Virus record (IMG/VR): IMGVR_UViG_3300020190_000010
Span: 62,001-126,000 of that record
Source of the DNA: a virus
Length of the DNA stretch: 64,000 nt
Strand: one strand, 5' to 3'
Shown here: piece by piece, positions 2,944 through 62,439 of the stretch
Numbering within the stretch: position 1 is the stretch's first letter
Layout: each line of letters starts with the position of its first letter
The notes under the pieces: generated by a model
Databases searched by the model: none
Told to the model about the DNA's origin: nothing
The model's input: the letters and a program-made list of their open reading frames with translations, nothing else
Made by a program: the position numbers and the translations under genes

Positions 2944-4260
2944 ATGGCAGCGTGGAAAAAAATCATAGTATCGGGTAGTGTGGCCGAATTAGCATCGGTT
3001 AGTGCTTCGGTTGGTGTGTTAGTCGGTACTAATCAACAAATTCAAACTACATCGGCATCTACAAGACTCTCTGGTTCTTTTTCCGGATCTTTTACAGGCG
3101 ATGGTAGTGGATTATCAGGTGTAACAGCAACACCATCATTCCCAACAACTGCAAAAACAACACTTGCAGGTTCAGACAAATTTTTTGTAAATGATGATGC
3201 CGGTGATGCAACAAGTGGTAATAAGAAAATTACATTATCAAATTTATTAACTGATATTGCTGGTAATGGTTTATCCGCAGTTGGTGGTGAAACACTAAAT
3301 GTTAATTCTGGTTCAATGCAAACTTTCTTTAATTCATCATCATATGCAGGTGTTAGCGGCGATATTCTTATAGATGCATCAACCGGTGTTGCAACAATAC
3401 AAGCCAATTCGGTTGCTCTTGGAACAGATACAACAGGTAATTATGTTGCTACTGTATCTGCTTCTGGTGCTCTTCTGTCATCTGCAACAAGTGGTGAAGG
3501 AAGCACCCCAAACATTACATTAGATACAAACTCAGCAACATTTACAAGTGGTGTTGTATCTGCTCTTCCAAGTGGAACAGTTAGTGGTTCTTCATTCAGT
3601 TCACCGTCACAAGGCACAGTCCGTGCAACAATTAACGGTGTAAATACAGATGTTGATACCGGTCTACAAACAGGAGACAGTCCAACATTTGTTGATGTAA
3701 CTTTAACAGGCGATATTACTGTTGGTGGCAATGATATTAAGATGAATGGTGGCACAACTGCCCTCACATTTAGTGGAACCGGTGATGTAGAAGTTGCTGG
3801 TGATTTGAAAGTTAGTGGTAACGATATTAAGGCAAGTAATGGAACAACTGCAATTACTCTTAATGGCGCTAATGCAACTGTTTCTGGAAGTCTTACTGTA
3901 TCTGGTGATTTAACTGTTAGTGGAACAACAACAACACTGGATACAACAAATCTTTTAGTTGAAGACAAATTTGCTCTTTTTGCATCTGGATCAAATGCAT
4001 CAACCGATGGTGGTATAATTGTTCAACAAGGTTCAACAACCGGCTATGCTTTGGGAGTTGATGCCGATGCAGACCGATGGGCACTTCAAAATAATTTATC
4101 ACCAACTGCAGTTACTATTGCACCTGATGCATTTATGGGTGTAATACAACAATGGACAACTGGTAATGCACCTGCAGCTCCACAATACGGCGGTGCAACT
4201 GCATACGGAACAATCGGTGTTGACATTGACGCCAAAGAGGCGTACATTTGGATAGGATAA
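2944..4260 (+). CDS. Tail fibre protein with shared [10 protein letters not shown]-terminus
   Basis: This 438-residue protein has a strong TTTGGAGAA ribosome site. The first 25 residues contain WKKIIVSGS and closely match those of the collagen-like fibre at 9976, so both probably dock to the same virion site. A SGSFTGDGSGLSG segment follows, then Ser/Thr/Gly-rich beta repeats including SLTVSGDLTVSGTTTTLDT (residues about 315-335). That segment and the following LLVEDKFALF are typical of phage fibre proteins. The C-terminal 90 residues (QQGSTTGYALGVDADADRWAL onward) look like a folded tip. I see no catalytic motif. It is a structural fibre subunit by composition and context. Confidence 0.65.
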   Translation: MAAWKKIIVSGSVAELASVSASVGVLVGTNQQIQTTSASTRLSGSFSGSFTGDGSGLSGVTATPSFPTTAKTTLAGSDKFFVNDDAGDATSGNKKITLSNLLTDIAGNGLSAVGGETLNVNSGSMQTFFNSSSYAGVSGDILIDASTGVATIQANSVALGTDTTGNYVATVSASGALLSSATSGEGSTPNITLDTNSATFTSGVVSALPSGTVSGSSFSSPSQGTVRATINGVNTDVDTGLQTGDSPTFVDVTLTGDITVGGNDIKMNGGTTALTFSGTGDVEVAGDLKVSGNDIKASNGTTAITLNGANATVSGSLTVSGDLTVSGTTTTLDTTNLLVEDKFALFASGSNASTDGGIIVQQGSTTGYALGVDADADRWALQNNLSPTAVTIAPDAFMGVIQQWTTGNAPAAPQYGGATAYGTIGVDIDAKEAYIWIG

Positions 4261-4517: not shown

Positions 4518-6137
4518 GTGAAAAAAGTTTTGTTTGTGGTGCCACATCTTTCCACAGGTGGTCTACCGCAATATACCTTTAAATTTATAGAAAGTATAAA
4601 AAATAAATACGATGTATATTGTCTTGAATACCAAGATATTACAGGCGGAATTTTAACCGTTCAACGAAATAAGATTGTAAATTTATTAGGAAATAATTTT
4701 TACAGTCTATCCCATCACAACAAAAATATACACGAAGTTATTTTGGAGATAACTCCCGATGTTATTCATTTTCAAGAAATTCCACAATCTTTCATTGTAA
4801 ACGAAGATTTGAACAAAATTTATTCGGATAATAGAAAATATAAAATAGTGGTAACAACCCATGGATCAAATACAAATCCAAAGGAAATAATTTATTCAGC
4901 AGATAAGTTCATACTTGTTTCAAATTGGAGCAAAGATATTTTTATTGAAGAATTTGGAAAAGAACTTTGTGATATTTGGGAATATCCAATAGATAAAAAT
5001 GAATATAATAAAGATGATGCTAAAAAAGAATTAGGATTTGATAGTAATTTTAAGCATATACTCAATGTTGGTTTATTTACTCCGGGAAAAAATCAAGGTG
5101 AACTAATTGAACTTGCAAGAAAACTTCAAGATAAACCAATTAAATTTCATTTTGTTGGAAATCAAGCCGGTAATTTTGAGAATTATTGGAAACCGATAAT
5201 GGATAAATTTCCATCAAATTGTATATGGCATGGTGAAAGAGAAAATGTTGATAAATTTTACAAAGCCGCTGATGTTTTTTATTTTACATCAAACCTTGAA
5301 TTAAATCCTTTGGTTGTAAAGGAAGCATTGTCATACGGATTACCAACTTTCATAAAAAAATTAGAAACATACGGTAATGAATACGATGATAGAGTTAATT
5401 ACATAACAAAAGATATAAATGATAATGTTAAAAAATTATTGCATGTATTAAACATGAATAACAAATTAAAAGAAAAAGTGCATAAAAAAAATATAGTTGC
5501 TATGCACATGATTACTGATATTGATACTGAAAGAGAAGTTGATTCTATGATTTCTTTATCAAAGTTAGAAAACTATGGAATAGAGTATATTCCATGTGTA
5601 AACAGGAGATATACCGAATTACCACCAAAAGAAACGTGTGAATATCCAGATAAAATTAGTTTTGAACCTGGTGGAAAATTGACACCTGGACATTATGGAT
5701 GCTACCTTGCACACAAGAATGCAGTATTAGATGGAATAAATAAAAATGAAGATTATATTCTTGTATTTGAATGTGATGCAATTATTGATGTGAGTTACGA
5801 TGAATTTATTGAAAAATTAAATTTTGCGTGCAAAACGCTAAATGATACAGATTTGTTAATGTTCTCATTTGGTTTTCATAATAATACAAATATAATTGAT
5901 AAGAAAAAAGATTATTGGGTTGTTAATAAATTTTATGGAGCACATGCATATTTGATACCAAAAAAATCATACAATGTATTCAAAAATCTTTTTGAAAATG
6001 AAAAATGGAATGTTACCGATTTATTATATGCTGAAAAATTAGATAATTACAAAATCGGTATTTTTGAAAAACCAATAACAAAACAAGCATCAGGAATTTC
6101 CATATTAGATAAGGTTTACCATGAAGAAAGATACTAA
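4518..6137 (+). CDS. Two-domain glycosyltransferase, GT4-like plus GT25-like
   Basis: The gene starts at GTG 4518 after AAAAAGG. Residues 1 to about 310 look like a GT-B enzyme of the GT4 type: MKKVLFVVPHLSTGG at the N-terminus, VIHFQE, VTTHGS, and a second Rossmann half with GLFTPGKNQGELI, HGERENVDKFYKAADV and the acidic ELNPLVVKEAL motif near 260. From about residue 325 a second domain resembles GT25 (LPS biosynthesis) enzymes: a MHMITD strand, then LTPGHYGCYLAHKNAV, the VFECDAI acidic motif and FYGAHAYLIPKKSY. It overlaps the next gene by 17 nt, so the two are probably translationally coupled. The natural acceptor may be a virion fibre or a host glycan; context favours fibres. Sugar donors cannot be assigned. 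Confidence 0.75.
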   Translation: MKKVLFVVPHLSTGGLPQYTFKFIESIKNKYDVYCLEYQDITGGILTVQRNKIVNLLGNNFYSLSHHNKNIHEVILEITPDVIHFQEIPQSFIVNEDLNKIYSDNRKYKIVVTTHGSNTNPKEIIYSADKFILVSNWSKDIFIEEFGKELCDIWEYPIDKNEYNKDDAKKELGFDSNFKHILNVGLFTPGKNQGELIELARKLQDKPIKFHFVGNQAGNFENYWKPIMDKFPSNCIWHGERENVDKFYKAADVFYFTSNLELNPLVVKEALSYGLPTFIKKLETYGNEYDDRVNYITKDINDNVKKLLHVLNMNNKLKEKVHKKNIVAMHMITDIDTEREVDSMISLSKLENYGIEYIPCVNRRYTELPPKETCEYPDKISFEPGGKLTPGHYGCYLAHKNAVLDGINKNEDYILVFECDAIIDVSYDEFIEKLNFACKTLNDTDLLMFSFGFHNNTNIIDKKKDYWVVNKFYGAHAYLIPKKSYNVFKNLFENEKWNVTDLLYAEKLDNYKIGIFEKPITKQASGISILDKVYHEERY

Positions 6138-7698
6138 AATTGGATTTATATTAACATACTTTCATAATTCAAGAGAAGGTTATGAATTATTGAAAAAAAA
6201 TGTAGAAATTATTAGCAGAGAAAATTATTACTTTGTAATAGCAAGTCATTCTCCTTTACCGGTTGAAATGCAAGAAATGTGTGATTTTTATTTTTATCAA
6301 CAAAAAAATGTAGTTGATGATAAAAGGTATTCACATGGAGTTGCAGAAAATAACTTAATACAAATTTCACTAAATCATTTGAAATCTAATGGAATAGAAT
6401 GGGCGTATAAGATATGTTATGACATAGAATTGAATGATGTTAGTAGGTTCAAGGATTGGATTAAAGAATACAAATATAAGTTTGTTTCATGTAATTGGGG
6501 AAATAACATATTATGTACAAATTCTTTCTTCACAAATGTTAATTTTGTTTTGAAAAACATAGACTTTTATGATTCAATAGATTCTATGTTTAGTGTAAAT
6601 AATGTTCTTGAAAATTGTTGGGAAAAAAATGTAATAGATAAAAATTTGTTACATGAAATATATTCTTTCAAAGACAAAGAAACTTTTTATGGTGATAACA
6701 AAATAGATATTCTTTTCTACAATTATTCTGATATATCGTTTACCTATTCTAAAGAAGAAAACAGATTTTACATATCAAACAATACGAAACATGAAACTAT
6801 AAACAAATTTCGTATATTTGACTATTACAGCGATACCGTAATTGATGTTCAAACCAATACGAATATAACTCCTGGATCTACATGGTGGTTTGTACCACCA
6901 CATTCTGGATATGTTCCAAATGCTAAAAACGGATATTATGTTGAAATTTATTTTCCAGATAGAGTGGTAAGAAAGAACACCGGAATAATAGATTTTGATT
7001 ACAAACACCCGTTACACAAAAAATTCTTAAAACATAAATTTGAAGACATAAAATACAACGAATTTTCAGATTTTTCCGAATATAATCTGTATGATGAATT
7101 TAACATTGAACCAAACGAAATAAAAACATATGTTGATATTGGTGCAAACTATGGTATGTCTAGTATACCATTTATTGCATCAAATTCAAAAGTTTACATG
7201 GTAGATGCGGATTCTACCAACATAAGAATACTTGAAAATTCATACGGAAAAGATAACAGGATAAAGATAATAAATAAGGCAATTCATTCTTATGATGGTA
7301 TTACATCTTTTTATGAAGATATTAACGGATCATGTATTTCAAGTATTTCTAATTCAAATGTATTTGGTTCATCGGATAATAGAATAGAAAAAAAAGTAGA
7401 ATGTATATCACCAAACAATTTGATTGAAAAGTATGTGGATGAATATGAAATAGATCTACTAAAAATAGATATAGAGGGTGCAGAGTATGAATTTTTCAAT
7501 AGTATAACAGATGACAATATCAAAAGGATAAAAAAGTTTGTAATAGAGTTTCATATGAATGAAAATTATCGTGTTATGAATATAATAAAAAAACTTGCAA
7601 AAAATGATTTTAGATTTAGACTTGCAAAATGGGAACGGAATAATGATGATGATTATATTGTATCACATACTTGGGGTATAATTTATGCTTGGAAGTAA
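6121..7698 (+). CDS. Glycosyltransferase-like domain fused to FkbM-type methyltransferase
   Basis: The 525-residue protein has two parts. The N-terminal half (1 to about 180) starts GFILTYFHNSREGYELL and has alternating strands and helices like a GT-A fold; I see CYDIELNDV but no clear DxD, so this part may be degenerate. The C-terminal half is an FkbM-family SAM-dependent methyltransferase. The SAM-binding loop VDIGANYGMSS is at about 338-348, followed by VYMVDAD, then LLKIDIEGAEYEFF near 444-458, the diagnostic FkbM motif. FkbM enzymes O-methylate sugars and small molecules, so this protein may both add and cap a sugar. It overlaps the flanking genes by 17 and 14 nt. Confidence 0.7.
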   Translation: MKKDTKIGFILTYFHNSREGYELLKKNVEIISRENYYFVIASHSPLPVEMQEMCDFYFYQQKNVVDDKRYSHGVAENNLIQISLNHLKSNGIEWAYKICYDIELNDVSRFKDWIKEYKYKFVSCNWGNNILCTNSFFTNVNFVLKNIDFYDSIDSMFSVNNVLENCWEKNVIDKNLLHEIYSFKDKETFYGDNKIDILFYNYSDISFTYSKEENRFYISNNTKHETINKFRIFDYYSDTVIDVQTNTNITPGSTWWFVPPHSGYVPNAKNGYYVEIYFPDRVVRKNTGIIDFDYKHPLHKKFLKHKFEDIKYNEFSDFSEYNLYDEFNIEPNEIKTYVDIGANYGMSSIPFIASNSKVYMVDADSTNIRILENSYGKDNRIKIINKAIHSYDGITSFYEDINGSCISSISNSNVFGSSDNRIEKKVECISPNNLIEKYVDEYEIDLLKIDIEGAEYEFFNSITDDNIKRIKKFVIEFHMNENYRVMNIIKKLAKNDFRFRLAKWERNNDDDYIVSHTWGIIYAWK

Positions 7699-8797
7699 AA
7701 TAAAATGTAAATTTGAAAATGGTTTATTAACTGTAAAAAATATATCAAACATAACATTAAACGATTGTTTGATAAATTTGAAAAATGTTTTTAACCACAA
7801 TGTTGTTTTTCAAATGACAACACTTCAACCAAATGTTGAACAAATTTTTACGGTATCTAATAATAATTTTAATTTGTATTGGATGGATGATGTTGTATAT
7901 TTGAACATCTATCAGAATCACAAATTGATATATCAGAAAAATATAAATGATAAATCAAAGTGCTATGTAATTTACTCAAATGAAAACTTTGAATCATTAG
8001 CCGAGCAATTGATACTTGGATTGGACTCATATTCAACATCGGATGTTATACATTATTCGATAAATTATGAATGTAAATTGGATTATCCAAACTTAAAAAA
8101 TATAAGTTATTATGTCGATGGTGATATAAAAGACGGTCAATATATGCAATTTATGAAACCAAAATTGTTTTTAGATTTGTTAAGCAGGGGATATAAAAAT
8201 GTTGTATTTCTTGATGCAGATATACAAGTTAGACCCAATATAGATGATATGTTTAGGTTTCTTCCAGAATTAGATGCAGGTCCCTTGTTACAAAAACATG
8301 CATGGGATTATACATTGGTTGGTGATCAATATATTCCAGGTCCTTTGTTACAAGAATACATGAAATTACCTACACAAAAATTTCCACAGGGTGTTACAAA
8401 TGTTATGGCATTTAACACTAATCACAAAAGTTTATTTGAAGAATGGGAATCTGTTTGTTTTTCAAACGGTATAGATGAAATAAGAAAAAAAGAATTTTTA
8501 CATGATGAATTGATATTAAATTGTTTATTGTGGAAACTTGGAATACCACCGAAAGAACATAATCTTTTTGTAAACACAGTAAATTTGAATTGTGTACATT
8601 TCTTTTACACACATGATATGGATAACGCCGAAACTGTTAATATGAATGATTACGGTTATGGGTGGGGACATCAATCCTTTATCCCATACGATAAAAATTT
8701 AATAAAAGGATTTCACGGTATAAAAGATTCCATTATTGCTTCAAATGTTAATGAATATGTTTTCATAAATGATTGTGTTAGAGGTAATTATGTATGA
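7685..8797 (+). CDS. GT8-like glycosyltransferase with N-terminal beta domain
   Basis: This protein has 370 residues. Residues 1 to about 95 are strand-rich and carry no motif I recognise. The remainder resembles a GT-A nucleotide-sugar transferase. YKNVVFLDADIQVRPNIDDM (around 173-192) carries the DxD-type metal and nucleotide-sugar motif DAD, and GVTNVMAFNTNH followed by HDELILNCLLWKLG fits the GT8 acceptor region. It overlaps its neighbours on both sides within the glycosylation cluster. Substrate and product are not predictable. Confidence 0.65.
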   Translation: MLGSKIKCKFENGLLTVKNISNITLNDCLINLKNVFNHNVVFQMTTLQPNVEQIFTVSNNNFNLYWMDDVVYLNIYQNHKLIYQKNINDKSKCYVIYSNENFESLAEQLILGLDSYSTSDVIHYSINYECKLDYPNLKNISYYVDGDIKDGQYMQFMKPKLFLDLLSRGYKNVVFLDADIQVRPNIDDMFRFLPELDAGPLLQKHAWDYTLVGDQYIPGPLLQEYMKLPTQKFPQGVTNVMAFNTNHKSLFEEWESVCFSNGIDEIRKKEFLHDELILNCLLWKLGIPPKEHNLFVNTVNLNCVHFFYTHDMDNAETVNMNDYGYGWGHQSFIPYDKNLIKGFHGIKDSIIASNVNEYVFINDCVRGNYV

Positions 8798-9929
8798 CGA
8801 TATTAAGTTTAACAAAAATATAATAAGAAATGAAATTCAAATTATACATCATTTTGTTGATGGTGGATATGTAGAAATAAAATCACCGATTGAAAAAAAT
8901 TTTAGAGTTGAATTTTGGAACAAAAATAATAACTGTGATTACTCTACGGTATTATCTTCAAATTCTTGGGCAAAAACAAGCAAAAAGTATTTTGAAGAGT
9001 ATACTTGTAAAGTTTATGATGAAGAAAATAAAATTATTTTTAATAAAAAATATGATGCAAAAAATAAAAGAGTATTTATATCGCTTGATTCAAAGGCGTT
9101 GGGTGATACTTTGGCATGGTTTCCATATGTAGAGGAGTTTAGAAAAAAATGGGACTGTGAAGTGATTTGCTCTACATTTTGGAATAAACTTTTTGAAAAA
9201 AATTACCCAAACATCCAATTTGTTCAACCTGGATTAGTTGTTCATAATTTATACGCCATGTATAGAATTGGATGGTATTATGATGGTGATAAAGCAAATT
9301 ATGATTTTACACCAATAGATTATAGACATCAAAATTTACAATATACTGCATGTGCACAACTTGGTTTAGATTTCAAACAAATTCGTGCAAAATTAGATAT
9401 ACCTTCTGTTGAAAAATCAAATAAAGTTGCAATAGGTATACATGGAACTGCTCAAACAAAGTATTGGAATAATCCAACTGGATGGCAAGAATTAACGGAC
9501 TATTTAACAGAAAATAATCATCAAACCATAATAGTTTCAAAAGAAAATGATGGTTATATGGGAAACTATCATCCAAATGGCGCAATAAAATTGCCAGAGG
9601 GATCTATAGAAAATCTGATAAAAGAATTATTATCCTGTAAATTTTTTGTTGGAATTGGATCTGGATTAAGTTGGTTAGCATGGACATTGGGCATTCCTAC
9701 AATTTTAATATCAGGTTTTAGTAAACCGTATTCTGAATTTAGTGGTGATAATGTTTATAGAATATTTAATTCAAATGTTTGTAATGGGTGTTTTAATACT
9801 CACAAATTAGATCCAGGAGATTGGAATTGGTGTCCTGAACACAAAGGAACTGAAAGACAATTTGAATGTACAAAAACAATAACATTTGATATGGTAAAAC
9901 CACATATAGAAAAGTTATTGAAATCATAA
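8790..9929 (+). CDS. Autotransporter heptosyltransferase-like (BAHT/TibC-Aah type) glycosyltransferase
   Basis: I choose ATG 8790 (MYDDIKFNK) over an in-frame ATG at 8769, because GTTAGAGGT precedes it and it overlaps the upstream stop in the compact form ATGTATGA. An N-terminal beta domain is followed by a GT9-like GT-B core: VFISLDSKALGDTLAWFPYV, then AIGIHGTAQTKYW and FFVGIGSGLSWLAWTLGIP. Near the C-terminus four cysteines (C331, C334, C348, C360) sit in CNGCF, NWCPEH and FECT. Autotransporter heptosyltransferases such as TibC carry a comparable iron-binding cysteine finger and O-heptosylate Ser residues of beta-helical adhesins. Here the next gene is a Ser/Thr-rich fibre. Family resemblance is firm; donor sugar and acceptor are inferred. 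Confidence 0.75.
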   Translation: MYDDIKFNKNIIRNEIQIIHHFVDGGYVEIKSPIEKNFRVEFWNKNNNCDYSTVLSSNSWAKTSKKYFEEYTCKVYDEENKIIFNKKYDAKNKRVFISLDSKALGDTLAWFPYVEEFRKKWDCEVICSTFWNKLFEKNYPNIQFVQPGLVVHNLYAMYRIGWYYDGDKANYDFTPIDYRHQNLQYTACAQLGLDFKQIRAKLDIPSVEKSNKVAIGIHGTAQTKYWNNPTGWQELTDYLTENNHQTIIVSKENDGYMGNYHPNGAIKLPEGSIENLIKELLSCKFFVGIGSGLSWLAWTLGIPTILISGFSKPYSEFSGDNVYRIFNSNVCNGCFNTHKLDPGDWNWCPEHKGTERQFECTKTITFDMVKPHIEKLLKS

Positions 9930-9975: not shown

Positions 9976-11079
9976 TTGTCTAATTGGAAGAAAATAATAG
10001 TAAGTGGAAGTCAGGCACACCTATCATCAGTAACGGCATCAAATGGATCTATAATATCTGGTTCGCTTGGTGTAACAGGTTCCATAGATATAATTGGTAA
10101 TTTAATAATAAACGGAACAAGTTATATCGCAGCACCATCTGGAACAAGTGGAACATCAGGAACATCTGGTGCACCTGGTCCCATTGGTCCTCCTGGTGCT
10201 TCAGGTTCATCTGGTTCATCGGGAACACGTGGAACAAGCGGAACTTCTGGTGCTGCTGGTCATGCTGGTGCCACTGGTGCCACTGGTGCTTCAGGTTCAT
10301 CAGGAACTTCTGGTGCTACTGGTGCAACTGGTGCAACTGGTGCTTCAGGTTCATCAGGAACTTCTGGTGCTGCTGGTGCCACTGGTGCCACTGGTGCTTC
10401 AGGTTCATCAGGAACTTCTGGTGCTACTGGTGCAACTGGTGCAACTGGTGCTTCAGGTTCATCAGGAACTTCTGGTTCATCAGGAACATCTGGTGCCACT
10501 GGTGCTTCAGGTTCATCAGGAACTTCTGGTTCATCAGGAACATCTGGTGCTGCTGGTGCTTCAGGTTCATCAGGAACCTCAGGAACAGGATTCAATACGG
10601 TATCAAATCCTGCAGATAATAGAATACTTACATCCGATGGAACTACAAATGCAGCGGTAGCTGAAAGTAATCTAAATTTTGACGGAACGATATTTAACGT
10701 TACTGGTAGTGCATATATTTCTGCTACCGCTCGTTTAACCGATGTTGAAGAACGAGAAGTAACTGTTTTAATTGGTGGAACACCAACAAGTCTAACATTA
10801 GATTTAAGCACTGCAAATGTATTTGAAGTTAGTTGGAATAATAATGTAAATACATTTACAATTTCAAATCCACCACCAACAGATTATGCAGGAAGTTTTA
10901 CACTCGTTACAACTGGAACTGGAATACCTTATACTTGGCAATGGGGTTCTGCGGTAACTTGGTCTGGCGGTTCTGCTCCTGCGATAACAAGCACAAACGG
11001 TAAAAAAGATATTTACGGTTTTATTACTACAAATCAAGGAACTAATTGGTATGGTTTTATCGGTGCACAAAACGTGTAA
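9976..11079 (+). CDS. Collagen-like tail fibre protein
   Basis: The start is TTG 9976, preceded by GTGGAG. Residues 1-25 contain WKKIIVSGS and closely match the fibre at 2944, suggesting a common anchor. Residues about 55-205 are uninterrupted Gly-X-Y triplets dominated by GTS, GSS, GAT and GAA, a collagen-like trimeric shaft with few prolines. The C-terminal domain (about 225-367) ends in strands with [19 protein letters not shown] and [10 protein letters not shown], a tip type seen in many phage fibres. Ser and Thr are extremely frequent in the shaft, and the gene follows a BAHT-like glycosyltransferase immediately. I infer an O-glycosylated trimeric fibre; modification itself is not visible in sequence. 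Confidence 0.75.
10138..10590 (+). repeat. Tandem DNA repeats encoding the collagen-like shaft
   Basis: In-frame degenerate 9-nt triplet repeats are assembled into larger near-identical blocks containing GCTTCAGGTTCATCAGGAAC. They look prone to expansion and contraction by recombination. Confidence 0.85.
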
Positions 11080-11088
11080 GGTTAAGTT

Positions 11089-13266
11089 ATGATAAAAAAT
11101 ATTATATTAAATGTTTCTAGATCATACAATCCCTACGTTTTTTCAAATGAAATATGGGCATGGGGACTCAATGATACAGGACAACTTGGACTGAATAATT
11201 TGACAAACCGTTCAAGTCCAGTGCAAGTTGGAACTCTTACCAATTGGAAAGATATTTCTGCAGGTAGTTCACATACAATGGCTATAAAAACAGATGGAAC
11301 AATGTGGAGTTGGGGTTCTAATAATGTTGGTCAATTAGGTATTGGAACCGTAGGAACTAAATCATCGCCCGTTCAAATTGGTTATGATACAAATTGGGTG
11401 TCTGGATCAGCAGGTGATGGTCATACTCTTGCCGTTAGAAATGATGGAACAATGTGGAGTTGGGGTTCAAATGGTGCAGGGCAACTTGGATTAAGTAATA
11501 CAACAAATAGAAGTAGCCCAGTTCAAATTGGAACTCTAACTAATTGGAAAGATGTTTCTGCAGGTCGTTCACATACAATGGCTATAAAAACAGATGGAAC
11601 GCTTTGGGGTTGGGGTTTTAATGTTTTTGGTCAATTGGGCGATGGAATCCAGACGAGTAAATCATCGCCCGTTCAAATTGGAACACGAACATGGACAACC
11701 GTTTCCGCCGGTGCAATTCATTCAGCCGCTATTCGTTCCGATGCCACTCTTTGGACATGGGGTAATAATGGAACTGGACAATTGGGCGATGTAACCGTAG
11801 TAAGTAAATCATCGCCCGTTCAAGTTGGAACTAGAACATGGACAGATGTTGCGGCGGGTCTTTCTATGACTATGGCAGTTAGGGGCGATGGAACTCTTTG
11901 GACATGGGGTAATAATGATAATGGTCAATTGGGATTGCTTAGAGACCGCAGTAGACCTAATTATGTAGATACTTATACTACTTTTACAAGTATTACTACC
12001 GGAGATGAAGCTTCACTTGCGATAGCATATGACGGAACTCTTTGGTCCTGGGGATCAAACTCAGGTGGTGTACTTGGTCATAATGATGGCATTTCACGTA
12101 GTAGTCCAACACAAATTGGAACTAGAATTTGGAATAATGTATCAAGGGGAGATCATCTACATACATTAGCAGTCCGTAATGATAATACGTTATGGTCATG
12201 GGGCGCGAATATTTTTGGTTCTTTAGGACAAAACGATGATATATGGAGATCTAGTCCAGTTCAAGTTGGAACTTTGAGTAATTGGTCACAAGTTTCTTCT
12301 GGATATTTACATTCTCATGCTGTTAAAACAAACGGTACACTTTGGGGTTGGGGGTACTTTGCTACCGGTGATGGTACAAGCAACAATAGATCCAGTCCAG
12401 TTCAAGTTGGAACTTTGAGTAATTGGTCTCAAGTTTCATCACTATTCGCAGAGGCATTTGCATTAAAGACGGATGGAACTCTATGGGCATGGGGAATAAA
12501 CTCATACGGAGCCCATGGCGATGGAACTACTACTTTTACGCTTTCTCCAGTGCAAATAGGAACTAGAACATGGTCATTTATTAGTGAAGGTGGTGGTGGT
12601 CTCCCATTAATGCAAACCTTTCATATGATTGCAGTTAGATCAGATGGAACTCTTTGGGCATGGGGACTCAATAATACAGGACAACTTGGACTGAATGATT
12701 TAGCAAACCGTAGTAGTCCAGTTCAAATAGGAACTGAAACAAATTGGGCATCCGGTGCAGTTGGTGGTAGTTCTACAATGGCAATAAAAACAAATGGAAC
12801 TCTATGGGCATGGGGAAGGAACGCAAACGCTATGCTTGGATTAGGTGACACTATAAATCGTAGTAGTCCTGTTCAAGTTGGCACTTTATCATCATGGGTT
12901 TCTGCCAGTATAGGTGAACAACATACAGTATTACTTCAAAATAATGGATACATATTAACTACTGGAGCTGCCAATCAATCCGGTGAACCTGGATTTGAAA
13001 CTAATAGGGCAATAAATCGTAGTTCTCCAGTTCAACTTGGTATCGATACAAATTGGCAAAGGGTAGAGGCAGCAATAAGTACAGGTGGACAATTCATTGC
13101 ACAAAAAACAGATGGAACACTTTGGTTATGGGGATCAAACACATCCGGTAATTTAGGTGACGGAACAGTTATTGCGAGGTCATCGCCAGTTCAAATTGGT
13201 AATGAAACAACTTGGGTTGATTTTAGTGCTAAGGGATTTCATTTTGTTGGTATAAAAAGATACTAA
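11089..13266 (+). CDS. RCC1-repeat beta-propeller protein, 14 repeats
   Basis: The 725-residue protein is built almost entirely of RCC1 repeats of about 52 residues. Each carries a variant of W-x-W-G-x-N-x-x-G-Q-L-G followed by NRSSPVQVGT and a Trp-containing strand. I count 14 copies, from WAWGLNDTGQLG near residue 23 to WLWGSNTSGNLG near 680. Copies 9 and 13 are the most diverged, and the latter has lost its Trp. Canonical RCC1 forms one seven-bladed propeller, so 14 repeats suggest two. There is no signal peptide or catalytic motif. It begins 9 nt after the collagen-like fibre stop, so a virion role such as a fibre tip or receptor-binding platform is likely but inferred. Confidence 0.8.
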   Translation: MIKNIILNVSRSYNPYVFSNEIWAWGLNDTGQLGLNNLTNRSSPVQVGTLTNWKDISAGSSHTMAIKTDGTMWSWGSNNVGQLGIGTVGTKSSPVQIGYDTNWVSGSAGDGHTLAVRNDGTMWSWGSNGAGQLGLSNTTNRSSPVQIGTLTNWKDVSAGRSHTMAIKTDGTLWGWGFNVFGQLGDGIQTSKSSPVQIGTRTWTTVSAGAIHSAAIRSDATLWTWGNNGTGQLGDVTVVSKSSPVQVGTRTWTDVAAGLSMTMAVRGDGTLWTWGNNDNGQLGLLRDRSRPNYVDTYTTFTSITTGDEASLAIAYDGTLWSWGSNSGGVLGHNDGISRSSPTQIGTRIWNNVSRGDHLHTLAVRNDNTLWSWGANIFGSLGQNDDIWRSSPVQVGTLSNWSQVSSGYLHSHAVKTNGTLWGWGYFATGDGTSNNRSSPVQVGTLSNWSQVSSLFAEAFALKTDGTLWAWGINSYGAHGDGTTTFTLSPVQIGTRTWSFISEGGGGLPLMQTFHMIAVRSDGTLWAWGLNNTGQLGLNDLANRSSPVQIGTETNWASGAVGGSSTMAIKTNGTLWAWGRNANAMLGLGDTINRSSPVQVGTLSSWVSASIGEQHTVLLQNNGYILTTGAANQSGEPGFETNRAINRSSPVQLGIDTNWQRVEAAISTGGQFIAQKTDGTLWLWGSNTSGNLGDGTVIARSSPVQIGNETTWVDFSAKGFHFVGIKRY

Positions 13267-13343: not shown

Positions 13344-14348
13344 ATGGAACAAAAAATTCATCCACTTGATGAAGCACTTTCCTATGCCATTAACGGTGCA
13401 CCCGAAAGAAGTGAGGAGATATTGAGAGACCAACCTCAAAATGACTATCGTGTTCTTTTTAATTTAGGATGGCACGAAATGCGTAAGGGTAATATGCAAA
13501 AAGCATTTGAACATTTCAATTATGGTCGTTTCATTGATGTCTTTGGTCTTCCTGCATTGCCAGGAAACATATGGAAAGATGAACCGCTTGAGGGCAAAAC
13601 ACTTCTTTTCCGTTGTGAAGGTGGTTATGGAGACCAAATTCTTAATTTTCGTTTTGCTAAGAGATTTGAGGAGATGGGTGCAAGAGTTTTGGTGTCTTGT
13701 GCACCAGAATTAAAGGCATTATTCTCTCGTCACGGTTTTATTTGTGTAGACAATGAAGTAATTATGTGTGCACACTATGATTATTGGGTTCCGGCTATGT
13801 CTGCCGCTTATGTTTTGGGTATGGAATACGAAGATTTAGACGGTTCACCGTTTATTTTTCCAACTGAACCAAGAAAATTGTTTTCAAAACCAAATCATCT
13901 TAAAGTTGGTATTCGTTGGAGTGGTTCTCCTGAATTTGAAGATGAACAACACCGAAGATTTCCACCAGAATTGATGATAAACCTACATGATATTCCAAAT
14001 ACAACACTCTATTCACTTCAGCGTGACGAAAATCTAGTTGATGGTCTTCCATTTGGTGATATGCGTGAACAAATGAAGTCTTGGGATGAAACTGCTAACA
14101 TTATTGCAGGTTGCGATGTTATCATTACATCATGCACGTCAATTGCACATCTTGCAGGTGCTATGGGTAAACCCACATGGATTGTTACGCCAATCATGCC
14201 TTACTATTCGTGGGTTGTTCCAGGTAATACTTCTCGTTGGTATGATACTGTTAGACTGTTCAGACAAGAAAAATATGGTGAATGGGAAGCTCCTTTCCAA
14301 AAAATACGTGAAGAACTTACAAAATTAGCAGAAGGATATGCAAAATAA
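13344..14348 (+). CDS. TPR-containing glycosyltransferase (GT9/GT41-like)
   Basis: The protein has 334 residues, with AAAAAGG upstream. Residues 1-60 form helical hairpins resembling a TPR: ALSYAINGAPERSEEIL and VLFNLGWHEMRKGNMQKAFEHF. The remainder is a GT-B-like domain: LLFRCEGGYGDQILNFRFA, KVGIRWSGSPEFEDEQHR, then DVIITSCTSIAHLAGAMGKPTWIV. That last motif is the donor-site signature shared by GT9 enzymes and TPR-fused SPINDLY/OGT-like proteins. TPR-linked enzymes of this kind commonly act on protein Ser/Thr. Its place beside fibre genes supports virion-protein glycosylation; the acceptor is not known. It overlaps the next gene by 1 nt. Confidence 0.7.
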   Translation: MEQKIHPLDEALSYAINGAPERSEEILRDQPQNDYRVLFNLGWHEMRKGNMQKAFEHFNYGRFIDVFGLPALPGNIWKDEPLEGKTLLFRCEGGYGDQILNFRFAKRFEEMGARVLVSCAPELKALFSRHGFICVDNEVIMCAHYDYWVPAMSAAYVLGMEYEDLDGSPFIFPTEPRKLFSKPNHLKVGIRWSGSPEFEDEQHRRFPPELMINLHDIPNTTLYSLQRDENLVDGLPFGDMREQMKSWDETANIIAGCDVIITSCTSIAHLAGAMGKPTWIVTPIMPYYSWVVPGNTSRWYDTVRLFRQEKYGEWEAPFQKIREELTKLAEGYAK

Positions 14349-15133
14349 TGGATTCCAATAGATTGAGCATAGATATTGTTCTACGGACACATAGTTTCAT
14401 AGATATTCATGCTAATCCAACACCAAGATATTGTGGTGTTGATAAAACTACATTGGTTATTAAGTGTATTAAGTCATTGATTCAGTCTGCAGAACAATAT
14501 GATGGAAAGATTCACTTTGTTTGGTTTGATGACCATTCATCACAAAAATTGATCGATGGGTTACATGACATTTTCAAAACATCTAAACACACATATGAGT
14601 TTAACCCATTAGAATTGCGTGGATGGAATGCATCTGGACATGCACAATTTGATAGAGGTCGTTCATCTACTGCCGATTTAGTTTATTTTGTGGAAGATGA
14701 TTACCTACATTATCCGAATGCAATACTTGATATGGTGGACGCTTACATTCGTTTCAAAACGAATTTAGGAACAGAAGTTGCCATTCACCCATACGATGAT
14801 CCAGATAATTACTTACCAAAGTTTATTGATGAAACTCGCGTTGTTCTCGGTAGAGATAGACATTGGAGAACAAACAAGTATTCAACATTTACTTTTATGT
14901 GTAATCCTGAAATAGTCCGTAAGTTCTGGAGTAGATTTTATACTTGTGCAACTGAATACATGACAGAGTGGGGTGAGGCAAATGAAATACAAGAAGGAAC
15001 TACTATCAATCATATTTGGCGTTGGGAAGTGAAGTTATTTACACCAATACCGTCACTTGCTCTTCATATGGGTTATGAAAGACAATTAGATCCTTATATT
15101 GATTGGAAGAAATTGTGGAATTTAATTCAGTAA
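14348..15133 (+). CDS. GT2-like (GT-A) glycosyltransferase
   Basis: The gene starts at ATG 14348, overlapping the upstream TAA by one base. The 261-residue protein has a GT-A-like opening (IDIVLRTHS), HFVWFDDHSSQ, and an acidic motif in VYFVEDDYLHYP near residue 115 that would bind metal and the nucleotide sugar. The C-terminal third contains TNKYSTFTFMCNPEIVRKFW and a conserved-looking HIWRWEVKLFTPIPS segment. It is translationally coupled to the TPR glycosyltransferase, so both probably act on one glycan. It could be a sugar-chain extender; substrate unknown. Confidence 0.6.
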   Translation: MDSNRLSIDIVLRTHSFIDIHANPTPRYCGVDKTTLVIKCIKSLIQSAEQYDGKIHFVWFDDHSSQKLIDGLHDIFKTSKHTYEFNPLELRGWNASGHAQFDRGRSSTADLVYFVEDDYLHYPNAILDMVDAYIRFKTNLGTEVAIHPYDDPDNYLPKFIDETRVVLGRDRHWRTNKYSTFTFMCNPEIVRKFWSRFYTCATEYMTEWGEANEIQEGTTINHIWRWEVKLFTPIPSLALHMGYERQLDPYIDWKKLWNLIQ

Positions 15134-15176: not shown

Positions 15177-15638
15177 ATGAGATATGCATTTGTAGAAAAT
15201 GGTATAGTTAAAGAAAGTAATAGACCATTACCTATTATTTGGGCAAATGTTTCAAACTTTCATTTGTTTGATGTTGAAACTCTGAAAACTTATGGTTGGT
15301 ATCCGTATCGTTTTGTTGAAGCTCAAAAAGATGTGGATGATATTATTGATGGTTCTTATTTTTCTGTTGAAGAAAACGAAGTTGTTGAATATCAAACTGT
15401 AAGAAAAAAATCAGAACAAGATATACAAAACGAAATAGATAACCAATGGGGTAATGTTCGTGCTCGTAGGAATATACAATTGATGGAAAGTGATTGGACA
15501 CAAGTTCTTGACAGTCCTTTTACAGACGAACAAAAAGAAGAATGGAAATTATATCGTCAGTTACTACGAGATATAACTTTACAAGTTGATGTTTTCAATA
15601 TATCTTGGCCTGTAAAACCTGGAACAGAAAATGAATAA
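15177..15638 (+). CDS. Tail fibre assembly chaperone-like protein
   Basis: This 153-residue protein has a ribosome site AAAGGAA. The C-terminal half contains VRARRNIQLMESDWTQVLDS, FTDEQKEEWKLYRQLLRDI and a final VFNISWPVKPG. That pattern (ARRN, a Trp-containing SDWTQ motif, EWxxYRQxLRDI, WP.P) is typical of the phage tail assembly chaperone family that accompanies tail fibres. The N-terminal half is a variable beta domain. It probably assists folding or trimerisation of a fibre in the upstream cluster and is not itself in the virion. Confidence 0.75.
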   Translation: MRYAFVENGIVKESNRPLPIIWANVSNFHLFDVETLKTYGWYPYRFVEAQKDVDDIIDGSYFSVEENEVVEYQTVRKKSEQDIQNEIDNQWGNVRARRNIQLMESDWTQVLDSPFTDEQKEEWKLYRQLLRDITLQVDVFNISWPVKPGTENE

Positions 15639-17891: not shown

Positions 17892-19016
17892 ATGAACCCA
17901 GCAACTTTCAAGTCGATGCTTACTCCCGAAATGGGAACAAATAATGTTACAGATACAGACCACGCTGCACAAATACTTGCTGATGCATATGATTTGGCAA
18001 ACATAGGTTCTAGTTGCACATTTTTTGGTTCATCAGTTATTAGTGGTGATAAAGATACATTGCAAAAATTTATCAAGTTAGCTTTTGATACCAATAAAAC
18101 TACAAATACAAAAGAAGGTTTTATTTTAATGGCAACTGGATTTTGTGCATATTGGTTGAAAGCTATATTTACACCATTACCAACTTTGCCTCCTACGATA
18201 AGTCCGTTAAAAGGCACAACTGTTCTTTTTCCAGGAGAACCTACGGAATTGGAAAAAGATTTAATAAAGGCATTTGACCAACCAGAATTTGAAATGTTTG
18301 CTGATACATTGTATAATGCATTAGTTGCACATCATACTAAAATAGCAGGAACATATAATGGACTAATACCCGCTTTTCCATCACCAATTCCTGGTATATT
18401 GCCTTGGGTTGCAATTTTAAGTGCACCTTTACCTGATACAGGAACTTCCGGCACAAGTGGAAAGGATGGATCATCTGGAACAAAAGGTAATGGTGGAACT
18501 GGTGGAACATCTGGAACTGGTGGAACATCTGGAACTGGTGGAACATCTGGAACTGGTGGAACATCTGGAACTTCTGGTTCTGGTGGAACTGGTGGAACAT
18601 CTGGAACTGGTGGAACATCTGGAACTGGTGGAACATCTGGAACTTCTGGTTCTGGTGGAACTGGTGGAACATCTGGAACTTCTGGTTCTGATAAAGGTAT
18701 GGGTGGGTTCGATACAAAAGGAGTTTCTGATTATAGAGTAAAGTTAAGATTATCTAATATAGTTCGTAGTGTTGATGGAAAATATAATGCAGATTCTATA
18801 ATAAGATTTGCTTTAAGTGACTTCCAAAGACCTGTACCTAACCAAATAAAATATGATAGTACGTTTAATAAAAAATTGATACCAGAGATTGGAAACTTAA
18901 AAGGACAAGATAGAAATAGATTATTTTACATATTCGATTATATGATTGAACAAAAAAATCTTGAATTAGACAATATAACTGGATATGTAAAATATGGATC
19001 AGTTAAAATAACATAA
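17892..19016 (+). CDS. Structural protein with internal collagen-like segment
   Basis: This protein has 374 residues. An N-terminal helical domain (1 to about 100, including DHAAQILADAYDLANIGSS) is followed by a proline-rich linker. Residues about 183-272 are glycine triplets (GTSGTGGTSGTGG type) forming a collagen-like rod. A C-terminal domain of about 100 residues contains LRLSNIVRSVDGKYNADS and YIFDYMIEQKNLELDN. The architecture of globular head, rod and globular tail resembles an accessory virion fibre. I do not recognise either globular domain. Confidence 0.5.
   Translation: MNPATFKSMLTPEMGTNNVTDTDHAAQILADAYDLANIGSSCTFFGSSVISGDKDTLQKFIKLAFDTNKTTNTKEGFILMATGFCAYWLKAIFTPLPTLPPTISPLKGTTVLFPGEPTELEKDLIKAFDQPEFEMFADTLYNALVAHHTKIAGTYNGLIPAFPSPIPGILPWVAILSAPLPDTGTSGTSGKDGSSGTKGNGGTGGTSGTGGTSGTGGTSGTGGTSGTSGSGGTGGTSGTGGTSGTGGTSGTSGSGGTGGTSGTSGSDKGMGGFDTKGVSDYRVKLRLSNIVRSVDGKYNADSIIRFALSDFQRPVPNQIKYDSTFNKKLIPEIGNLKGQDRNRLFYIFDYMIEQKNLELDNITGYVKYGSVKIT
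18494..18685 (+). repeat. 18-nt tandem repeats (collagen-like coding)
   Basis: Perfect and near-perfect copies of GGTGGAACATCTGGAACT are arranged in three larger blocks, each ending in a TCTGGTTCT variant. All are in frame. Confidence 0.85.
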
Positions 19017-61683: not shown

Positions 61684-62439
61684 ATGGCTATTAACCTAGA
61701 TGCAATCAAGAGTCGTTTGAACTCTCTAAAAAACACAAACAATCGCACATCTAACATTTGGAAACCCGATCCGGGTGAAACTCAAATCAGAATTGTTCCC
61801 TACATTCATAACAGAGAAAATCCGTTTATCGAATTGTATTTCCATTACAATTTGGGTAAGAGATCTATTCTTTCTCCTGCATCATTTGGTCGTCCTGATC
61901 CAGTGGTTGAGTTTGCAGAAAAACTTAAACAAACTGGTGATAAAGAAGATTGGGTAATGGGTAGAAAATTGGAACCCAAAATGCGTATCTATGTTCCTGT
62001 TATTGTTCGTGGTCAAGAAAATGAAGGTGTAAAGTTTTGGGGATTTGGTAAACAAATTTATGAAGAACTACTTGCTTTCTTTGTTGATCCTGATTACGGT
62101 GATTTGTCTGATGCAAAATCTGGTCGTGACATTGTTGTTACCGTTAAGTCACCAGAAGAAGCCGGTAAGACTTATGCAGAAACAAGTATTCGTGTTAAAC
62201 CAAAAGAAACACCTATTACAGAAAGTGCAGAAGTTCTTGAAAAGATTAAGTCACAACCACAAATTACAGAATTGTATCCAGAACCATCTTATGATGATTT
62301 GAAGATTCAGTTACAAACTTGGATGGGTGCTTCTTCACAAGAAGAAGAATCAAAAGATCTCAATTACAAACAAGAAAAGAGTGACAGCTCAAACACACCT
62401 GCAGAAGATGTCGGTGTTACATTTGATGATTTATTTTAA
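61684..62439 (+). CDS. Single-stranded DNA-binding protein (T4 gp32-like)
   Basis: The 251-residue protein has TTTGGAGAA upstream. A basic N-terminus (LDAIKSRLNSLKNTNNR) is followed by WKPDPGETQIRIVPY and FIELYFHYNLGKRSILSPAS, the core strands of gp32-type OB folds. The last 35 residues are acidic, ending DVGVTFDDLF, as in SSBs that recruit replication partners. I do not see the gp32 zinc cysteines. It has the longest leader in the window (160 nt, AT-rich), which could allow autoregulation as in T4. Confidence 0.88.
   Translation: MAINLDAIKSRLNSLKNTNNRTSNIWKPDPGETQIRIVPYIHNRENPFIELYFHYNLGKRSILSPASFGRPDPVVEFAEKLKQTGDKEDWVMGRKLEPKMRIYVPVIVRGQENEGVKFWGFGKQIYEELLAFFVDPDYGDLSDAKSGRDIVVTVKSPEEAGKTYAETSIRVKPKETPITESAEVLEKIKSQPQITELYPEPSYDDLKIQLQTWMGASSQEEESKDLNYKQEKSDSSNTPAEDVGVTFDDLF

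Follow-up and report, generated by a model that had tools for sequence, protein, structure and literature searches.

Glycosyltransferases of the TibC/AAH type, also referred to as bacterial autotransporter heptosyltransferases (BAHT, TIGR04414), are represented by TibC of enterotoxigenic Escherichia coli (ETEC; PDB 4RAP/4RB4) and by AAH. In TibC, Cys-339, Cys-342, Cys-358, and Cys-370 serve as ligands of a ferric ion, R286 contacts adenine N1 and its loss abolishes or largely diminishes activity, and a β-hairpin known as the thumb joins dimers into a ring (dodecamer) (PMC4358343). In this article, a TibC-like enzyme encoded at positions 8790-9929 (+ strand) of viral DNA is described; the window, meaning the whole stretch that was analyzed, comprises 64,000 nucleotides (positions 62,001 to 126,000 of IMG/VR virus record IMGVR_UViG_3300020190_000010). 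The window enzyme shares with TibC and AAH the fold, the N-terminal barrel, the four-Cys finger, and the equivalents of D110, T226, K230, and W305, and it likewise has a Ser/Thr-rich neighbor, whose acceptor role is predicted in the window phage; it differs in that this partner is collagen-like and not an autotransporter with TIGR04415 repeats. From sequence comparison, we put at roughly 0.7 the probability that the enzyme is part of a subfamily which is sister to TibC and whose members O-heptosylate Ser/Thr residues of collagen-like rods, the acceptor here probably being the tail fiber whose gene begins at 9976.

Gly-X-Y rods with O-glycans are represented by BclA of Bacillus and by the substrates of the collagen GT25 enzymes of eukaryotes and mimivirus, systems that employ other enzymes and other sugars and are not TibC-like. 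We also know of no TibC-like enzyme in the glycosylation system of mycobacteriophages. In that system phage glycosyltransferases sugar-coat virion proteins, as is proposed here, and the acceptors are the C-termini of capsid and tail-tube proteins, unlike the proposed collagen-like fiber (Freeman 2023, cited in PMC12619734). Two close relatives of the window enzyme are already present in databases, namely A0A6J5SVC1 of an uncultured Caudovirales phage ('Glycosyltransferase Aah/TibC') and WWT39291 of Microcystis phage Mel-JY01, a GT4-TibC-like fusion that adjoins a structural gene. Their names stem from automatic annotation only, and the records propose no acceptor or function; since A0A6J5SVC1 is already named as an Aah/TibC homologue, the mere existence of such phage proteins is not new. 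In the open-licence PMC literature, no paper was found that connects TibC-type enzymes with either phages or collagen-like proteins, and the papers searched likewise did not mention the partner-dependent division of the family, the collagen pairing in phages and bacteria, the partial loss of Arg286, or the heptose-activation genes of phages. On balance, we lean toward the broader view that a widespread phage and bacterial subfamily O-heptosylates (Gly-Ser/Thr-Ser/Thr)n collagens, which would constitute a second acceptor class of the TibC fold, and that some phages, by uniting the genes for acceptor, transferase, and heptose activation at a single locus (L011), would produce glycosylated viral collagen fibers.

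Family Assignment and Fold

The gene starts with an ATG at 8790, with AGAGG 5 nt upstream; its start overlaps the stop of the preceding gene (ATGTATGA), a second in-frame ATG lies at 8769, and the reading frame bears out the position (8790-9929) given in a first-pass annotation of this DNA. According to profile and structure matches, the 379-aa product consists of an N-terminal β-barrel, a GT-B catalytic domain, and a four-Cys finger. The GT9-like core proposed in that annotation was recovered by PF01075 (8.8e-7), and in the profile search that it had suggested, TIGR04414 (Aah/TibC) won widely, scoring 285.6 bits against a curated cut-off of 200, with the next-best models, RfaC and heptsyl_trn_I of the plain GT9 lipopolysaccharide (LPS) type, at 19 and 16 bits. 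Among all solved structures (PDB), TibC was the only strong match (E=1.4e-60, 34% identity). The AlphaFold2 model, based on 42 related sequences, reached a mean predicted local distance difference test score (pLDDT) of 92.1 and a predicted template modeling score (pTM) of 0.89, and its comparison by Foldseek returned the TibC chains (4rap) with a template modeling score (TM) of ~0.86, compared with 0.38-0.48 for WaaC. A plain GT9 LPS heptosyltransferase was rejected on the basis of this structural distance and of WaaC/WaaF-type model scores of at most 19 bits. The search of PHROGs yielded no family for the enzyme.

These results also bear on whether the enzyme modifies host LPS or another surface glycan, leading to receptor change or phage exclusion, with the fiber linkage being only regional. 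Although the core is of the GT9 type and phage glycosyltransferases are known to alter the host surface (PMC12619734), such a target is very improbable given the TibC fold with its protein-acceptor barrel and finger, the remoteness of LPS heptosyltransferases, and the two-gene pairing with collagen-like proteins in bacteria described below.

The likeness to autotransporter heptosyltransferases proposed in the first-pass annotation holds as kinship with TibC and TIGR04414, but the window enzyme falls into a distinct sister clade in which the equivalent of TibC Arg-286 has mostly been lost, and for this reason it should not be given the label 'autotransporter heptosyltransferase'. TIGR04414 scores amount to about 285-327 bits in the collagen-linked clade, as opposed to 575-668 bits in autotransporter-type members; if the proposed function is correct, the equivalog label of this model applies the name 'autotransporter heptosyltransferase' to enzymes of a sister subfamily whose targets are different.

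Four-Cys Finger and Active Site

The finger, C331-x2-C334-x13-C348-x11-C360 (9780..9869, + strand), was located by alignment with the iron ligands of TibC, where C331, C334, C348, and C360 correspond one to one to C339, C342, C358, and C370. The four-Cys arrangement noted earlier thus coincides with the iron ligands, and the shorter spacing after the second Cys was also confirmed, the window enzyme having x2-x13-x11 and TibC x2-x15-x11. An IMG/VR scan detected 131 relatives of the enzyme, from which the 55 distinct sequences among the best 80 plus Mel-JY01 were compared; all four Cys are kept in 55/55 of these distinct viral relatives, as are the D, K, and W equivalents, and the Cys are among the 32 invariant columns of alignment A2, so that the arrangement is not fortuitous. 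The finger is the least certain ordered part of the model, with a pLDDT of 84 for residues 331-340 and 68 for residues 341-350.

The predicted active-site residues, all encoded on the + strand and identified by alignment, include D106 as the catalytic base (TibC D110; 9105..9107; role from PMC4358343), K224 as the contact of the donor β-phosphate (TibC K230; 9459..9461), and W295 as the contact of heptose O4 (TibC W305; 9672..9674). T226 of TibC is kept as T220, and P300 is replaced by Gly290. The defining residue R286, which contacts adenine N1 in TibC, is not kept, its position being occupied by L276 (9615..9617).

The thumb segment is shorter than that of TibC and lacks hairpin strands in the model, while the tip pair Y256-M257, replacing F265-V266, stays hydrophobic. 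It is deleted in the L054/L064/L066/L076/L079 lineage. In L054 (11480-20833), a 3117-aa fiber with a run of 684 Gly-X-Y triplets adjoins the TibC-like fusion that carries this deletion.

Collagen-Like Partners in Phages

The gene directly downstream of the enzyme (9976..11079, + strand) encodes a 367-aa collagen-like tail fiber, the predicted acceptor, which matches PF01391 (2.4e-22) and phrog_5073 (tail fiber, 4e-26). Counting of triplet runs revealed 50 consecutive, uninterrupted Gly-X-Y triplets rich in Ser, Thr, and Ala (10141..10590, + strand), predicted to form an O-glycosylated rod; the earlier description of this neighbor as a collagen-like fiber is therefore supported. The window belongs to a 137-kb virus record whose terminase, portal, sheath, and tube genes are T4-like. 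The phage is accordingly a T4-like one, related to Mel-JY01 and more remotely to phages of Flavobacterium.

In more than half of the distinct viral loci, the TibC-like domain lies inside a longer protein, preceded in the scanned fusions by GT4, FkbM, or other methyltransferase domains. WWT39291 of Mel-JY01 (L082 4747-8430), which is annotated only as an FkbM methyltransferase, has GT4 at its N-terminus and TIGR04414 (317 bits) in its C-terminal third.

A collagen-like run was defined as at least 10 Gly-X-Y triplets, and viral loci were counted if at least 14 kb long. Such a run is encoded at 52/61 viral loci, compared with control loci of the same phage group around PhoH (2/23), UvsX (0/17), and terminase (8/20), controls that differ in their distance to tail genes, with terminase being the fairest because it lies near them. 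When only distinct viral sequences were considered, the run was present at 38/54 loci. In a reciprocal test, the enzyme occurred in 12/114 viral stretches with (GTS)4 and in 0/106 with (GPA)3 (p=4e-4). In the enzyme-linked runs, Ser or Thr occupies 79% of the X positions and 78% of the Y positions, the corresponding shares in the GPA set being 9% and 28%.

Bacterial Relatives and Phylogeny

A bacterial scan identified 513 relatives, the best 80 of which were studied, comprising 19 members of the clade of the window enzyme (L083-L101) and 61 others (L102-L162). A Gly-X-Y run of at least 10 triplets was observed at 15/19 clade loci and at 0/61 other loci (Fisher p=6e-13, a value that overstates independence because the clade represents one evolutionary origin). 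Each of the four neighbors tested outside the clade is an autotransporter or adhesin that carries TIGR04415 or AIDA repeats and lacks a collagen repeat; the partners tested inside the clade carry PF01391 collagen repeats and no TIGR04415. The clade thus adjoins collagen-like proteins and not adhesins, so the enzyme probably sugar-coats such fibers.

The bacterial clade partners, often the next gene, are short secreted or lipoprotein-like proteins, the Methylobacter example of which reads GTAGTAGTAGTAGTTGTSGTAGTSG. Their loci are flanked by housekeeping genes such as queA and smpB, indicating that the pairs are chromosomal and not prophages, and gene order and strand vary among bacterial lineages, indicating that the linkage has outlived rearrangement. 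The idea in the first-pass annotation that a phage fiber would be a new acceptor class consequently gains strong and independent support from comparative genomics, but the class is not phage-specific, given the Methylobacter pairs, and the transfer itself is a prediction. In four gammaproteobacterial loci (L096, L098, L099, and L100), two (GSS)n lipoprotein-like genes occur near one TibC-like gene, one of each gene pair carrying a conserved IVATGKALINGNV-type domain.

The pattern with which whole genomes were searched called for a G-[S/T]-[S/T] triplet six times in a row; codons for Cys, Trp, and Arg and stop codons also satisfy it. Repeats of the form (G[ST][ST])6 were detected in 9/13 clade genomes and 0/5 autotransporter-type genomes, and in 8/9 of the repeat-bearing clade genomes no listed match lies farther than about 2.5 kb from the enzyme gene. 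In a sample of 369 Gammaproteobacteria, the pattern matched 13 genomes, about five of which, besides the enzyme-bearing G032, contain true Ser/Thr repeats by codon reading; the enzyme is present in only two of the sampled genomes. A fresh sample of the Methylobacter family provided three new clade members, in two of which (G431 and G453) the repeat is at most 1.5 kb away, and no repeat was found in the genomes of its autotransporter-like members.

Every viral row of the phylogenetic tree falls into one clade of 68 rows, as does every bacterial row that has a collagen-like neighbor. This clade is supported by an SH-aLRT value of 99, sits on a long stem (0.76 changes per site), and is separate from the autotransporter-linked enzymes. 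The window enzyme is a member of it, and a Gly-X-Y protein is encoded less than 10 kb away. Phage and bacterial rows are intermixed in the clade, showing that the genes have moved between phages and bacteria. Arg286 is retained in L095-L101, a bacterial lineage that is the sister group of most remaining clade members, but has been lost from most others; in the simplest scenario, the switch of partner preceded the loss of Arg286.

Donor Sugar and Proposed Mechanism

Several phage loci encode HldE-like enzymes that may serve heptose activation. In L015 and L034, a nucleotidyltransferase directly downstream overlaps the stop of the enzyme gene and matches rfaE_dom_II best (103 and 109 bits), followed by a kinase with rfaE_dom_I as its best match, and L026 contains an HldE-like nucleotidyltransferase without the kinase. 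L011 (8897-17741) combines a GT4-TibC fusion, a small cupin-like gene, an HldE-like nucleotidyltransferase, an HldE-like kinase, and a 1592-aa (GSS)n protein.

According to the mechanism proposed here, the cytoplasmic O-glycosyltransferase would take up an activated heptose during infection, most likely ADP-heptose of the host, on which the window phage would depend as its virus record has no heptose genes; some related phages may supply their own HldE-like kinase and nucleotidyltransferase. With D106 acting as the base and K224 and W295 holding the donor, heptose would be placed on Ser/Thr residues of the (Gly-X-Y)n rod in the adjoining tail fiber before or during virion assembly, after which GT4/GT25, the FkbM methyltransferase, and other neighbors would probably extend or cap the sugar. 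The presence of GT4 in 31/95 and of FkbM methyltransferase in 21/95 of those sampled in the neighborhood of the enzymes fits a longer, methylated glycan. The four Cys may bind one iron (or zinc) ion and build a finger for oligomer contacts and acceptor gripping. The benefit would possibly lie in stiffer fibers that resist proteases or defenses.

Besides the common origin of the bacterial loci and the unequal distances of the viral controls from tail genes, several observations weigh against this proposal. With 8/20, the terminase control itself demonstrates that such fibers are common in this phage group, and 16/54 distinct viral loci lack a long Gly-X-Y run, for which shortness does not account in all cases. 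The enzyme gene of Methylobacter sp. BlB1 (G021) is adjoined by a less pure collagen-like gene, whereas the purest repeats of this genome are found on a different contig. The HldE-like matches stay under the curated cut-offs, though ranking first among families, and no heptose-synthesis genes were found in the window's own virus record. Position 286 is Leu in the window enzyme and V, L, I, T, or A in most viral relatives, so the donor base could differ, and a long Gly-X-Y run is absent from the sequence examined for the HldE-carrying L015, L026, and L034, so another tail protein may be the acceptor there.

Two other explanations were considered. One is that enzyme and acceptor are the same but that a non-heptose sugar or a non-ADP carrier is used, the donor having changed when Arg-286 was lost. 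The substitutions at position 286 and the lack of a heptose-synthesis gene in the window virus record favor this, all the more as Arg is present in all 61 autotransporter-group sequences (L102-L162) and in L095-L101; it nevertheless appears unlikely, because K230 and W305, the heptose O4 contact, are kept in all aligned relatives, position 226 is always Thr or Ser, and HldE-like genes lie downstream in the Arg-less lineages L011, L015, and L034, so that Arg loss alone is no argument against heptose. The other explanation, which we consider more doubtful still, is that the acceptor is another Ser/Thr-rich, β-structured virion protein, such as the fiber-like products at 1376, 2944, or 740, and that the rod is merely a frequent neighbor in the tail region. 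Such proteins do adjoin the cluster, the known TibC acceptors are β-helical, and in three HldE-carrying lineages the collagen is replaced by large tail proteins of another kind; however, bacterial clade members occur without any phage tail, alone with collagen-like secreted proteins, and the TIGR04415 acceptor repeat was found in none of the window's fiber proteins tested.

If O-heptosylation of collagen-like rods is correct, the GTSGTSG-type tail rods, which are frequent in aquatic phages, would be hyperglycosylated, a point relevant to their stiffness and lack of proline and to host adsorption and immunity, and phages would carry heptose-activating genes beside a protein glycosyltransferase. 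The combination of a collagen-like protein and an enzyme, as in Methylobacter, would offer a two-gene system for testing bacterial collagen glycosylation and for the glyco-engineering of designed rods.

Other Genes of the Cluster

Upstream of the enzyme and likewise on the + strand, a two-domain GT4 + GT25 glycosyltransferase (4518..6137; PF00534 6.3e-16, PF01755 2.8e-5) belongs to the same cluster; GT25, a family that includes collagen galactosyltransferases, thus shares the cluster with a collagen-like fiber. It is followed by a 525-aa protein (6121..7698, + strand) whose C-terminal part is an FkbM-type methyltransferase (TIGR01444, 68.1 bits), and by a 370-aa protein (7685..8797, + strand) with a DADIQV (DxD-like) motif read from its residues, perhaps a glycosyltransferase, for which scans with Pfam-, NCBIfam-, and PHROG-type profiles gave no family match. 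Two candidate alternative acceptors precede them, namely a Ser/Gly/Thr-rich repetitive fiber-like protein without TIGR04415 (1376..2920, + strand) and a Ser/Gly/Thr-rich protein (2944..4260, + strand) whose N-terminus, WKKIIVSGS, resembles that of the 9976 fiber.

Further glycosyltransferases of the cluster are located downstream, including a TPR plus GT9-like protein (13344-14348) and a GT2-like protein (14348-15133). The gene at 15631, a possible cytidylyltransferase by appearance, was set aside after no NCBIfam family matched. Adjoining the collagen fiber, 11089-13266 encodes a 725-aa RCC1 β-propeller protein with 13 PF00415 stretches (phrog_7220), which is probably a virion or receptor-binding protein despite its PHROG label; RCC1 proteins similarly follow the fiber in L005, L023, L024, L038, and L044. 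A second collagen-like repeat protein with 28 Gly-X-Y triplets, a possible further acceptor, is encoded upstream of the terminase (17892..19016, + strand).
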